NCBI GenBank assembly: GCA_913061095.1
Contig: CAJXVM010000009.1
Coordinates: 62,001-126,000 of the forward strand
Length of the DNA stretch: 64,000 bases
Reading direction: 5' to 3'
Source: an uncultured Ignavibacteria bacterium
Lineage (GTDB): Bacteria > Bacteroidota > Ignavibacteria > SZUA-365
In this document: in pieces, positions 22,923 to 29,051 of the stretch
Layout of the letters: the number at the start of each line of letters is the position of its first letter
How positions within the stretch are numbered: the first letter of the stretch is position 1
Program-made: the position numbers and the translations under genes
The notes under the pieces: generated by a model
What the model was told of the DNA's origin: nothing
The model's input: only the letters and a program-made list of their open reading frames with translations
Database searches by the model: none

Positions 22923-24875
22923 TCAGATTCCCGCATGCAGCTGCAGCCGGATGATGCGGCCCGGCTCCCAGACTTGAATCCCCGATGAAAACGGACTGCG
23001 CAGGTAGGAGAGATGCTGCCGGTAGTTGCGGTCGAAGAGGTTTTCGATGGTGAGATCCGCACGCAGCGTGCTGCCGGTCCAGCGCAGGCCGAGGTCGAAG
23101 CGCAGCCAGCCGGGAGTGGCGGACTCGCCAAGGGAAGGATCGATGCGATGCTGGTCTGCCTGTGCGACTGTGCCGGCATGCAGGGAGAGGCGATGCCATG
23201 CGGGCGTGTGAAGGGAGATCGACCCGCGCAAAGGAGGAATCTCCGACAGCGGCGTGCCGCCATCCATGTGCTGTCCCCAGGTCCAGGCGAGGTCGGCCGT
23301 CAGCAGCCTGCGCTCATACCGCAGTGTAGCACCGGCGATCCACGCATCGACGTTGTCAAAGGTCTGATACATTCCCGCGCTGCCGCTACGCTTTACCGGC
23401 AGCACGTATCCGAATACGCCGCTGCCGAACAGCTCGGCCTGCAGTCCGTGTCGTCGTGCGCTCAGGCGCAGGGTTCCGCGCATCGGCTGGGAGAGGGTGG
23501 GATTCCCGCTCCAGGTCGGTTTGCCGCCTGGCTTGCGCACGGCGATGTACAGCTCCTCGGTCTGCGGAGCCTCGGTCGCCGCTTCCAGCTGCACACCGTA
23601 GCCGCCGCGCGGTCCCGTACGCCGCCGCCATTCCGCCTGCGCGGCACCGATGATGAACCAGCGGCCGTTTTTCGCCTCGGGATGCACTTCGCGGTGCACT
23701 GCCAGACGCGATTCATCCCCCATGCGCTGATGCGTCAGTCCCGCCCGCAGTGAAAGGGATATGCTCCCTGCATGCACGCGATGCATCCCCGCCGCGTAAT
23801 ACTGCTGCGCCTCAGGCAGCATGTGATTTTCGAGCAGCGGCTGACGGTCTGCCGCAGCCGCGTTTGTCAGTGTCCATCCGGTATTCCGGGATTTTCCCAT
23901 CACTGCATTCGCGATGGAATCGACGCGCGAATCAAAGCGGTTGTCGGCATCCCAGCGCCGCATCCACACTTCGAAGCGGTCGCCGGTGACGCCCACGGTG
24001 AGATTCCGCGCAGCGGTGCGCATGGATACCATTCCCCGGCGGAATTCATTGGTCATCAGGTGGTCGGTCCAGGTCGCGTACAGGCGCATATCCTTCCACT
24101 GCAGGTGCCCGTTCCACACGCGGTTGAAGCGTTCGTCCATGAGCAGGTAGGGAAAAAGCACATTCTCCGTATACGAAAACCCGCCACCATACTGCCAGTC
24201 GCCGGACTCCCCGCGCGCGGACACTTCCGCGAGCGTGTGCGCATGCAGCGAGGTGTATCCATAGAGGTCGGTGAAATCGCGTCCGCTGCCGTCGGTGTAG
24301 GGATCGCCGCTGGCATAGCGCAGGGAGAACGCTTGCCGGCGTCCCTCGGCCATCACCGCGGCGTCAACGCTGCGCGCTGCATCCGCGCTGCCCGCGAGGG
24401 AAGCGTGCGCGTGCCACTCATCGGAGGGCGGCCGCCGCCGGAAATGCACACTGCCCGCCAGGCCGGTGACCGGCGCGAGCGCGGATTTGTCGAGTACGAC
24501 GGTAGCGAGGTCAAGGGGATTGACACGCGTCAGGGGAGAATCCATGCGGTTGGGACAGGCGCTGTGATAGCGCTCGCCGTCCACCGCCACGACGATGTCC
24601 CCGCGCCGGAAGCCGTCCACCGCGATATCCTGCGCGAAGGCCACACCGCGCCGTACGAGCGTGAATCCCTGCCGCGCGAGCACGGACTCCAGCGCTTCCT
24701 TGCGCATCGGCACATCGAGACGGCCGAACGCGATGCGGCTCGCCGAAATCTCCACGGCGCCGAGTTCCCAGGTGCGCACGCTGTCTGCTCCCCGCGCGTG
24801 CTGGCGGTCTGTTCCCTGCGCGTACAGGCTGGCGGCGGATGTGATCAGGAGGATGAGCAGAAGGACGGTTCTCAT
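22923..24875 (-). CDS. TonB-dependent receptor, OprC/NosA-like copper type
   Basis: A 650-residue outer-membrane receptor with signal (LLLILLITSAASLYAQ), a plug domain and a C-terminal 22-strand-type barrel ending IRLQLHAGI. The plug has ERYHSACPNRMDSPL, so Cys107 and Met111 form CxxxM, and the barrel has TDHLMTNEFRRG, His272 and Met274 as HxM. CxxxM plus HxM is the copper-binding signature of OprC, and the spacing of 165 residues is similar. A role in copper uptake is therefore inferred. The start at 24875 is chosen because the signal begins there. 67 extra upstream codons are non-signal-like. No copper chaperone is adjacent. Confidence 0.8.
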   Translation of the reverse strand: MRTVLLLILLITSAASLYAQGTDRQHARGADSVRTWELGAVEISASRIAFGRLDVPMRKEALESVLARQGFTLVRRGVAFAQDIAVDGFRRGDIVVAVDGERYHSACPNRMDSPLTRVNPLDLATVVLDKSALAPVTGLAGSVHFRRRPPSDEWHAHASLAGSADAARSVDAAVMAEGRRQAFSLRYASGDPYTDGSGRDFTDLYGYTSLHAHTLAEVSARGESGDWQYGGGFSYTENVLFPYLLMDERFNRVWNGHLQWKDMRLYATWTDHLMTNEFRRGMVSMRTAARNLTVGVTGDRFEVWMRRWDADNRFDSRVDSIANAVMGKSRNTGWTLTNAAAADRQPLLENHMLPEAQQYYAAGMHRVHAGSISLSLRAGLTHQRMGDESRLAVHREVHPEAKNGRWFIIGAAQAEWRRRTGPRGGYGVQLEAATEAPQTEELYIAVRKPGGKPTWSGNPTLSQPMRGTLRLSARRHGLQAELFGSGVFGYVLPVKRSGSAGMYQTFDNVDAWIAGATLRYERRLLTADLAWTWGQHMDGGTPLSEIPPLRGSISLHTPAWHRLSLHAGTVAQADQHRIDPSLGESATPGWLRFDLGLRWTGSTLRADLTIENLFDRNYRQHLSYLRSPFSSGIQVWEPGRIIRLQLHAGI

Positions 24876-25024
24876 GGCGGAATTCCCGTGATTGATGTTC
24901 CTGCGTAGCGACGGCATATCGTGATGGCGAATCAACGGAAAGCTAGGGAAACTTTCCATGCAAGACAATGATATCCAGATCATGTGCGTGGTCGTTGCCC
25001 GCGTATTGCTTCTTTCGAGAGCGC

Positions 25025-25247: not shown

Positions 25248-28200
25248 ATGAAAGCACTGTGTATTGTCTGCGCCCTCCTGATTGTGATTCCCGGTTTGCT
25301 GTGTGCGGAAGAGGTGACGCGCGATGACGCTGAAGCGGTCGCCCGGTCGTGGATGCTCCGGCAGGGCTGGACCGAATTCCGGGATGCGGACATCCGTACC
25401 ATCCTCCCGCATCGTGTCGACGGTGTTACGGTCGGGTATGTCGTTTCCTTCATGCCTGACGGATTCGTCGTTGTGGCGGGAGACGATATTGCGCATCCGG
25501 TCGTGATGTTCGCGCGAAGCGGCACCGTATCGGAAGTAATGCCGCCGCAGCTCGGCGCGATACTCGATGCGATCGGATCCGACATTATCCGCAGCGCCGG
25601 ACGCCACAGCACCGCTGTACCGCATGCCGCGCTGCTCTGGGAGCAGCTGCGCAGCGGCGTCCATCCGCCGGGTATCATGGACGATATGTCGTCGCCTCTG
25701 CTGCAGACGCGATGGAATCAATCGTGGCCGTACAACAAATACTGTCCTGAAGATCCAGCTGGGCCGAGCGGACACTGTTACACGGGTTGCGGGGCTGTGG
25801 CGCTCGCCCAGGTGCTGCGCTATTATCGTGCACCGGGTCGCGGAAACGGTGCGCATGCGTATCATCATCCCGACTACGGTTCACTGTCGGCGACGTTCGA
25901 AGACCGCTGGTATGCATGGCAGGACATGCCGTCGAAGATTTACAGCTCGAGTCCGGAAGGACACATCGACGAAGTCGCGACGCTTCTGTATCACTGTGGT
26001 GTCGCCGTCGAGATGGACTATGGGCCATACGGATCGTCATCCTCCATGCCGGATCTGCGCGACGCGTTCGTGAATCATTTTCGTTTTCATTCCTCCGCCA
26101 CCTATATCAAACGAAGCGATTTTGAGGATGGGAAGTGGCACGATATCCTCCGCCATGAACTCGACGGCGGCCGGCCGATCGTCTATTCAGGTCACAGCTC
26201 CTCGCTGGGTGCCGGACACATGTTCATCATAGACGCATACAACGCTGAAGGATATTATCATTGCAACTGGGGCTGGGGAGGTTCGTACGATGGATGGTTT
26301 TACCTGCATGATCTGACACCGGGATCACGGGAGTTTGACACATATCATGCCGCTCTGACCGGACTCCTCCCGATTGCATGGATGGTCGCATCCACCGGCG
26401 TGAATTATGATCTTCATGCGGTTGACGCGTGTGAGTCTGCCGTCTGGGCCTGCGGGGATGCCGGCAGTGTTATTCTTTCGACGGATGCGGGGTGGACGTG
26501 GAGTCCGGTATCTTCGCCCTCCGGAGCGACGGCGCTGCACAGTGTCTCCGTGGTGGATGCATCGTGTGCCTGGGTTCTCGGGTTGACTGAAACAGCATCC
26601 GTATCCGCCCTCTGGCGCACGACGGACGCCGGTCAATCCTGGACAAAGCAGCTCAGTGTGGATCCTGCCGGCGGGATGCTGCGCGCGGTTTCCTGTCGTG
26701 ATGCGGATAACGCAGTCGCCTACGGTGATCCGGTGGACGCGGCATTCCGGGTATGGCGAACGTCCGATGGCGGAACAACCTGGCTCCCGGTCGACGCGCC
26801 ATCCCTCCCGCAGGCGGCATCAGGCGAACACGGCGGGTGGGATAATCTCTCCCGATACGGATCGATCCTGTGTTTCGGCACCACCCTGCCTGCCGGCACG
26901 GCCCGTGCAGTGTGTTCAACCGACGACGGGACAACATGGAGCGTGTCTCCGATGCATGAAGTATTCGGGAGATCCGTCCTCCGTACCGCGGCGTCTTCGA
27001 GTCAGCAATTCTGGGCGCTCGGCGTCGGAGGCATCGTATCCGTTTCCGGCGACGGCGGAATGACATGGGGGCAGGGTGTCGCGACCGGCATGAACACCGC
27101 ATCCTCGATAGCTTCCGGAGGCGAGGGAATCATCACCGTGGTAGGGGAAGGCGGGGTGCTGCGGTATTCAACCGATGCGGGGATAACCTGGAATGAGGAA
27201 GGTCTTCCGTCGCGCAGCGGGATGCGGGATGTAGAGGTGAACCCTGACGGACAATGCTGGATCGTCGGCGACGGCGGGATCGTTTTCGTGCGTATCAAAC
27301 CCTCGTCGTACATCGCTCCCCCGGAAGCGCCGATTCCACTGCTTCCGGAGGAAGGTGCCGACGATATCACCATCCCCGCCACTTTCGAGTGGGAAGGAAA
27401 TGAGCGCGCGTGGTCTTACGAGATCCAGGTGTCGAAGCTGATGGATTTCAGTGATATCACGTACCAGCGAACGAATATTCTGGGCACATCGTGCAGGGCG
27501 TATTATCTCACGGTGAATACGGATTATTTCTGGCGTGTCCGGGCCGAAAACGGCGGCGGACCGGGAGAGTGGTCTGCGATCCGGACCTTCCGCACGGTTC
27601 CGGGAAAACCGGTTGCGCCGGAACTCTCGACACCGATCGACGGCGCGGTCGGAGAACCGACAGAGGTTTCAGTGACCTGGCTTCCGGTGGACGGAGCCTC
27701 TTCGTACCACCTTCGAGTGTATTACAAGGAGTTTAATATCTATGTGACATTTGCTGAGAAGACGCAGCTGACGGATACCTCTTTCACCCTGACCAACCTC
27801 GAACGCGGTGTCACGTATTACTGGAGAGTCCGCGCCCATAACAGCATGGGATACAGTTCGTGGACCTCAACCTGGACGTTCACAACCATGCCGCTGCTGT
27901 CCGCACCGGAACTGCTTGCACCTGCGAACACAGCGGAGGAGATATCACTCGCTCCGACGCTGGAATGGCAGAAGCAGGAAGCGCTCGAATTCTATCACGT
28001 CCAGGTGGCGGAGGACGAACAGTTCGACGTGATCGCCTATGAGCACACGGAAATCCAGGAACCGCCTCTCGGTGTGTCGAACCTGAAGGGGCTTACGCAG
28101 TACTACTGGCGGGTGCGTGGGATTGTTGCCGGCGCCTCTTCGCCGTGGAGCGAGGTCTGGTCCTTTACCACATGCCCGGCGCTTTCTGCGCCAGTCCTCC

Positions 28201-29051
28201 TCACACCTCCCGATTTGAGCAGCGGGGTTTCGGTGGATGTGACATTGAGCTGGAATGCGGTCAGTGCAGCCGAAAGTTATGACGTTGATCTCGCGCTTGA
28301 TGGAGAGTTCAGTTCTATCGTCCTCCATCAGCAGGGAATCCCGGATCCCTCGCTTCCTGTCACCGGTCTGCACGATACGACGCAGTATTTCTGGCGCGTC
28401 CGTGCCGTCAACGACGACGGATGTTCACGGTACTCGGAACCATGGACCTTCACCACGAAGCTGACTGTTCCGGACGTGCCGCAGCCCCGATCACCGGAGA
28501 ATCATGCAACGAATGTGCTGCGATGCTGTTCATTTAGCTGGGAAGCAGTGCCGCGCAGCGATATGTACAGGCTGCAGGTCGGCACGGATGATCAGCTGAA
28601 GCAGCTGTTCTGCGATACCAGTGGACTCCTGCAAACGGTGTGCATGGTTCAGCAGCTGCATGCCGAAACACAATATTACTGGCGTGTCGCGGCCGGCAAT
28701 TCCTCCGGATACAGCGACTGGTCGGAGGTATATGACTTCATCACCGGGACTGTCGTTGGTGTGCATCCACTGCGAGGCGGAGACGAGGTGTCCGTTCCGC
28801 AGTTGCGGATGTATCCCAATCCGTTCCGAGATGGGACGACGGTCCGGTATTTCATCCCGCGGCCCGGCGCCGCGGAGCTGATCGTTCACGACATTCTCGG
28901 ACACGAGGTCTGGAGAAAATCCATGCGGCACGTGACATCCGGCTGGCACGAGCTCTACGTGCCGGCAGTTCATCTGCGGCCGGGCATCTATCATTGCGCG
29001 CTTGCATCCTCTGGTGGAACGCTCGTGCGCCGGATGGTCATTCTGAAATGA
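25248..29051 (+). CDS. C10-family cysteine peptidase with repeat domains and T9SS tail
   Basis: A 1267-residue secreted protein. Residues 1-20 are a signal. A Spi-like propeptide runs to about 130. The peptidase domain at about 150-370 has catalytic Cys181 in YTGCGAVALAQVLRYY, His324 in GAGHMFIIDAYN and the HCNWGWGGSYDGWF motif, as in streptopain and prevotella interpain. Next come BNR/YCF48-like photosynthesis-assembly-type repeats (about 385-690, WRTTDAGQSW and similar) and five fibronectin III-like modules (YWRVRA). A T9SS type-A domain follows (MYPNPFRDGTTVRYFI...RRMVILK). It probably degrades proteins outside the cell. Confidence 0.88.
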   Translation: MKALCIVCALLIVIPGLLCAEEVTRDDAEAVARSWMLRQGWTEFRDADIRTILPHRVDGVTVGYVVSFMPDGFVVVAGDDIAHPVVMFARSGTVSEVMPPQLGAILDAIGSDIIRSAGRHSTAVPHAALLWEQLRSGVHPPGIMDDMSSPLLQTRWNQSWPYNKYCPEDPAGPSGHCYTGCGAVALAQVLRYYRAPGRGNGAHAYHHPDYGSLSATFEDRWYAWQDMPSKIYSSSPEGHIDEVATLLYHCGVAVEMDYGPYGSSSSMPDLRDAFVNHFRFHSSATYIKRSDFEDGKWHDILRHELDGGRPIVYSGHSSSLGAGHMFIIDAYNAEGYYHCNWGWGGSYDGWFYLHDLTPGSREFDTYHAALTGLLPIAWMVASTGVNYDLHAVDACESAVWACGDAGSVILSTDAGWTWSPVSSPSGATALHSVSVVDASCAWVLGLTETASVSALWRTTDAGQSWTKQLSVDPAGGMLRAVSCRDADNAVAYGDPVDAAFRVWRTSDGGTTWLPVDAPSLPQAASGEHGGWDNLSRYGSILCFGTTLPAGTARAVCSTDDGTTWSVSPMHEVFGRSVLRTAASSSQQFWALGVGGIVSVSGDGGMTWGQGVATGMNTASSIASGGEGIITVVGEGGVLRYSTDAGITWNEEGLPSRSGMRDVEVNPDGQCWIVGDGGIVFVRIKPSSYIAPPEAPIPLLPEEGADDITIPATFEWEGNERAWSYEIQVSKLMDFSDITYQRTNILGTSCRAYYLTVNTDYFWRVRAENGGGPGEWSAIRTFRTVPGKPVAPELSTPIDGAVGEPTEVSVTWLPVDGASSYHLRVYYKEFNIYVTFAEKTQLTDTSFTLTNLERGVTYYWRVRAHNSMGYSSWTSTWTFTTMPLLSAPELLAPANTAEEISLAPTLEWQKQEALEFYHVQVAEDEQFDVIAYEHTEIQEPPLGVSNLKGLTQYYWRVRGIVAGASSPWSEVWSFTTCPALSAPVLLTPPDLSSGVSVDVTLSWNAVSAAESYDVDLALDGEFSSIVLHQQGIPDPSLPVTGLHDTTQYFWRVRAVNDDGCSRYSEPWTFTTKLTVPDVPQPRSPENHATNVLRCCSFSWEAVPRSDMYRLQVGTDDQLKQLFCDTSGLLQTVCMVQQLHAETQYYWRVAAGNSSGYSDWSEVYDFITGTVVGVHPLRGGDEVSVPQLRMYPNPFRDGTTVRYFIPRPGAAELIVHDILGHEVWRKSMRHVTSGWHELYVPAVHLRPGIYHCALASSGGTLVRRMVILK

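Follow-up and report, generated by a model that had tools for sequence, protein, structure and literature searches.

A putative OprC-type TonB-dependent copper receptor of a divergent subfamily in an uncultured Ignavibacteria bacterium

The entry of copper across the outer membrane of Gram-negative bacteria is, to our knowledge, poorly known. The mechanism is defined by OprC, which has been described from Proteobacteria, and by its orthologue NosA of Pseudomonas stutzeri. A 64,000-nucleotide stretch of DNA from an uncultured Ignavibacteria bacterium (the window) encodes a TonB-dependent receptor in which an earlier note recognized a CxxxM motif in the plug and an HxM motif in the barrel. The locus raises the question whether a receptor so divergent from OprC could import copper in a comparable way.

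The predicted copper site and its likeness to OprC

Both motifs are present at the residue numbers given by the earlier note, in a gene whose limits also agree exactly with that note and which lies on the minus strand (Table 1). C107 and M111 lie within ACPNRMD, H272 and M274 within DHLMTN, and the whole protein contains a single CxxxM, a single HxM and a single cysteine, C107. Taken alone the bare motif is weak evidence, since 1.3% of shuffled sequences with the composition of the window protein hold both motifs somewhere along their length. When OprC of Pseudomonas aeruginosa (PDB 6fok) is included in a multiple alignment, C107, M111, H272 and M274 coincide with C143, M147, H323 and M325, the copper ligands of OprC (PMC8610252). 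M246 and M285 coincide with M286 and M343, which are among the silver ligands of the OprC methionine track, M286 being an Ag2 ligand (PMC8610252). These two methionines are kept, and equivalents of the remaining named silver ligands of OprC were not found in the window protein in this alignment. Akin to OprC, the window protein also displays D112, M246-D247 and N276 around these positions. It is, however, shorter than OprC (650 versus 723 residues in the crystallized chain), carries fewer track methionines and shares about 20% overall identity with OprC-type receptors.

Table 1. Features of the receptor locus and of related loci (window positions unless a locus or contig is named)
Feature	Position	Strand	Remarks
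Putative OprC-type TonB-dependent receptor	22923..24875	-	650 aa; signal peptide, plug, barrel; ATG at 24875, stop ends at 22923
Codons C107-P-N-R-M111	24543..24557	-	plug half of predicted copper site (OprC C143, M147)
Codon M246	24138..24140	-	OprC Met286 equivalent (Ag2 ligand, methionine track)
Codons H272-L-M274	24054..24062	-	barrel half of predicted copper site (OprC H323, M325)
Codon M285	24021..24023	-	OprC Met343 equivalent (Ag2/Ag3 ligand)
Conserved upstream block GGATATCATTGTCTTGC	24960..24976	-	85 bp before ATG
C10 (streptopain-type) peptidase	25248..29051	+	divergent from receptor gene
Small Cys protein	L093:8220-8597, L101:8255-8743, L102:10041-10427, L103:2119-2487, L105:10042-10425, L108:7817-8197		upstream of subfamily receptors
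Lipoprotein-like family	L104:10223-11023, L107:6959-7783, L097:9989-10816, others		about 275 aa
ZnuD-like zinc receptor L003, own genome	C2:125880-126521		

As a single sequence the window protein found no match in the PDB with phmmer and no significant plug or barrel match in Pfam, and it is therefore very divergent. Profile comparisons revealed its relationships more clearly. Aligned with hhalign to a plasmid-borne OprC relative from Pandoraea, it scored 98.6% with an E-value of 9e-16, both motifs being aligned. When a profile of its subfamily (A4) was compared with the PDB, OprC ranked first (E 1.3e-20), followed only by PhuR (2.5e-6). A better fit to siderophore receptors, which the earlier note had named as an argument against copper, was not seen, as none of them reached an E-value of 0.01 in this search. 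A control profile built from receptors lacking the motifs ranked colicin I and heme receptors at the top. AlphaFold2, supplied with a three-sequence alignment only, returned a mean pLDDT of 32.6 and hence no trustworthy model of the window protein.

Scoring against the TonB-copper equivalog TIGR01778 had been proposed as a check, and its outcome was mixed. TIGR01778 was the top NCBIfam model for the window protein (80.3 bits over nearly the full length, 46 bits ahead) and matched 11 of 11 subfamily members. However, the window protein misses the curated cut-off of 472.45 bits by almost 400 bits and hence lies outside the equivalog. Moreover, a paralogue in the same genome (L001), which lacks the motifs and whose best family is hemin, reaches 114 bits, so that the TIGR01778 score alone is not diagnostic and was rejected as a test. 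The siderophore and heme models (TIGR01783 and TIGR01785) gave about 33 bits, on C-terminal parts of the protein; TIGR01783 reached 33.6 bits over the C-terminal 100 residues only, against a full-length cut-off of 223.5 bits.

Conservation among relatives

A search of 197 genomes of the class with a profile built from motif receptors detected such receptors in 36 of them. At the loci examined, all 40 sequences with scores over 300 bits, of which 38 come from these genomes and two are plasmid-borne OprC relatives, contain both motifs in the expected context, whereas CxxxM was found in none of the 31 TonB receptors examined at about 136 to 255 bits. The presence of the motif is thus bimodal, with a clean score gap between carriers and the others. 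In a sample of the phylum, the subfamily of the window protein occurred in 11 of 296 genomes, seven of them outside the class. The assertion that copper-type receptors are rarely noted in lineages with a type IX secretion system (T9SS) is therefore only partly right: beside the 36 genomes of the class, a CxxxM-HxM receptor with 21.8% identity to OprC (G2EC70, BZARG_1494) was reported in 2024 from the flavobacterium Bizionia argentinensis (PMC11213822). By this description, G2EC70 resembles the window protein in being a CxxxM-HxM receptor in Bacteroidota.

Every one of the 48 motif proteins has the same residue at seven positions (C107, M111, D112, M246, D247, H272 and M274). The telling column is that of M246, because the 48 proteins were chosen by motif and this column played no part in the choice; it holds methionine in all 48 and in none of 22 receptors without the motif. 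At the M285 column 38 of the 48 have methionine, as does every member of alignment A4. A quick, unrooted tree was calculated without bootstrap and with the motif columns removed; in it the window protein belongs to a clade of 18 members (SH-aLRT 100), whose stem measures 1.7 changes per column. In the same tree this clade is distinct from OprC, from a clan with ACPNRMDPP and HLMDN and from a clan with AC[TV]DKMDP and HxMDD, and a single branch (support 97) separates the receptors without the motif from all the others. The exact alignment of the motif with the OprC ligands, together with its invariance in the 18-member clade and in the 48 motif proteins, constitutes strong evidence.

Gene neighborhoods and copper enzymes

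The receptor gene of the window stands alone, with a VWA/T9SS protein encoded on one side and a C10 peptidase/T9SS protein on the other. In the latter, a Spi-like propeptide is combined with repeats of two kinds (BNR-like and fibronectin III) and with a weak T9SS sorting domain. No copper gene adjoins the receptor gene, neither in the window nor at its three orthologues in the genus. Among the 40 motif-receptor neighborhoods, 16 contain nos genes, 14 of them three or more and two lying on truncated contigs; NosL and NosD in these neighborhoods were confirmed by Pfam. Three receptors of the window's own subfamily (L093, L101, L133) sit inside nos clusters. By counts uncorrected for phylogeny, NosZ occurs in 26 of the 36 genomes with a motif receptor compared to 75 of all 197 genomes (Fisher p 5e-6), and the receptor and NosZ genes are no more than about 20 kb apart in 14 of the 26 genomes having both. 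For receptors without the motif, a hand tally of those listed in NosZ genomes gave about one in 39 near NosZ. The gene linkage in the relatives supports copper as the substrate. As described for NosA, L093, L101 and L133 are CxxxM-HxM receptors tied to the copper supply of N2O reductase.

Unlike the setting of NosA, the window genome lacks NosZ. NosZ of either type and NosL are absent from this genome and from its genus, and NosZ was consequently rejected as the copper client in the organism itself. This does not contradict a copper role, since OprC is also present in non-denitrifiers (PMC8610252). The genome encodes three heme-copper oxidase superfamily genes, and such genes are also present in the genus; Cu P-type ATPases above the cut-off number two in this genome and were detected in four of five genomes of the genus. 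Because NosZ and NosL are missing, copper probably serves the heme-copper oxidases here and not N2O reductase.

Upstream of the receptor gene, a 17-bp block (GGATRTYNTTGTCTTGC) is kept in four orthologues of the genus, the upstream regions having otherwise diverged, and the block has its sole perfect match in the window's own genome at this site. It is possibly a promoter or an operator, that is, a site for a regulator; presumably it may contain the -33 element of a Bacteroidota-type promoter. A copper regulon sharing the block was rejected, as the other near-matches in the genus adjoin unrelated genes.

Two further families were observed beside receptors of relatives. Directly upstream of six subfamily receptors lies a gene for a protein of about 125 amino acids with an N-terminal hydrophobic segment and an NLC...C.G.C motif. 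It has no significant Pfam family, is absent from the window's genus and is possibly a periplasmic copper carrier. A lipoprotein-like family is encoded next to many AC[TV]DKMDP/HxMDD clan receptors, sometimes together with nos genes.

Alternative readings and proposed function

Copper might also enter as a complex with a small chelator or peptide, as with CrtA or MbnT, the four residues then acting as a selectivity filter. CrtA (BfrG) of Bordetella pertussis is, as proposed for the window protein, a TonB-dependent copper receptor; it takes up chelated copper using a conserved histidine and belongs to a separate sequence cluster whose family logo contains no conserved cysteine or methionine (PMC12914433). 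PepSY_TM genes neighbor most loci of the CrtA family. The thinned methionine track of the window's subfamily and the small Cys protein preceding six of its receptors would fit such uptake. However, that protein is missing from the window's genus, and the window protein keeps the complete OprC site for naked copper, C107, M111 and M274 being invariant throughout its subfamily. We regard import of chelated copper as unlikely.

We consider it very improbable that the motif is coincidental, or a relic of an ancestor, and that the protein is an ordinary receptor for siderophores, heme or zinc. Scores are low in every family, and TIGR01783 and TIGR01785 do match C-terminally, but OprC is the best solved structure, it is the control profile without the motif that meets colicin I and heme receptors first, and the motif is invariant across the 18-member clade with its long stem. 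With regard to zinc, the families that the window protein matched do not include ZnuD, a metal-ion TonB receptor whose metal site lies in a position resembling that of the OprC site (PMC8610252). The same genome encodes a separate ZnuD-like receptor, which scores 222 bits to NF038289, below the cut-off. It is harder still to believe that silver or some other soft metal occupies the site, or that the receptor senses surface copper without importing it. The Cys/Met/Met/His ligands of OprC do bind Ag(I) as well (PMC8610252), but the nos linkage of the relatives points to nutritional copper, and the stretch ahead of the plug is too short to hold an N-terminal signalling domain.

The receptor is thus likely, on the basis of sequence comparison, to be an OprC-type copper importer of a distinct Bacteroidota subfamily. 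The view of the earlier note, that an otherwise divergent receptor carries the OprC-type copper signature, is backed by the alignment, the ranking of profiles, the tree and the gene context alike. Metal binding, transport and the kind of metal carried are inferences, as is the geometry of the site, which is drawn from homology to OprC (6fok). Copper would arrive at a predicted site where C107 and M111 of the plug meet H272 and M274 of the barrel wall, the reduced methionine track (M246, M285) probably passing Cu(I) to these four residues; TonB energy would then open the plug and copper would be released into the periplasm.

As a broader and decidedly tentative proposal, somewhat doubtful as a whole, the 18-member clade may represent a separate subfamily of Bacteroidota copper importers that retains the primary OprC site and part of the track. 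It would be associated with the small Cys protein in many species and with clade II nos genes in some, and in the genus of the window it would supply heme-copper oxidases, N2O reductase being absent. The literature searched, mostly papers available without subscription, contained none describing this subfamily and none that connects clade II nos clusters in Bacteroidota with receptors of this type. A Bacteroidota class of CxxxM-HxM receptors, tied in part to these clusters, would offer a testable route by which copper could reach an enzyme that consumes a greenhouse gas. The sequence rule CxxxMD, then MD, then HxM may also serve to spot likely copper receptors where the TIGR01778 score fails.
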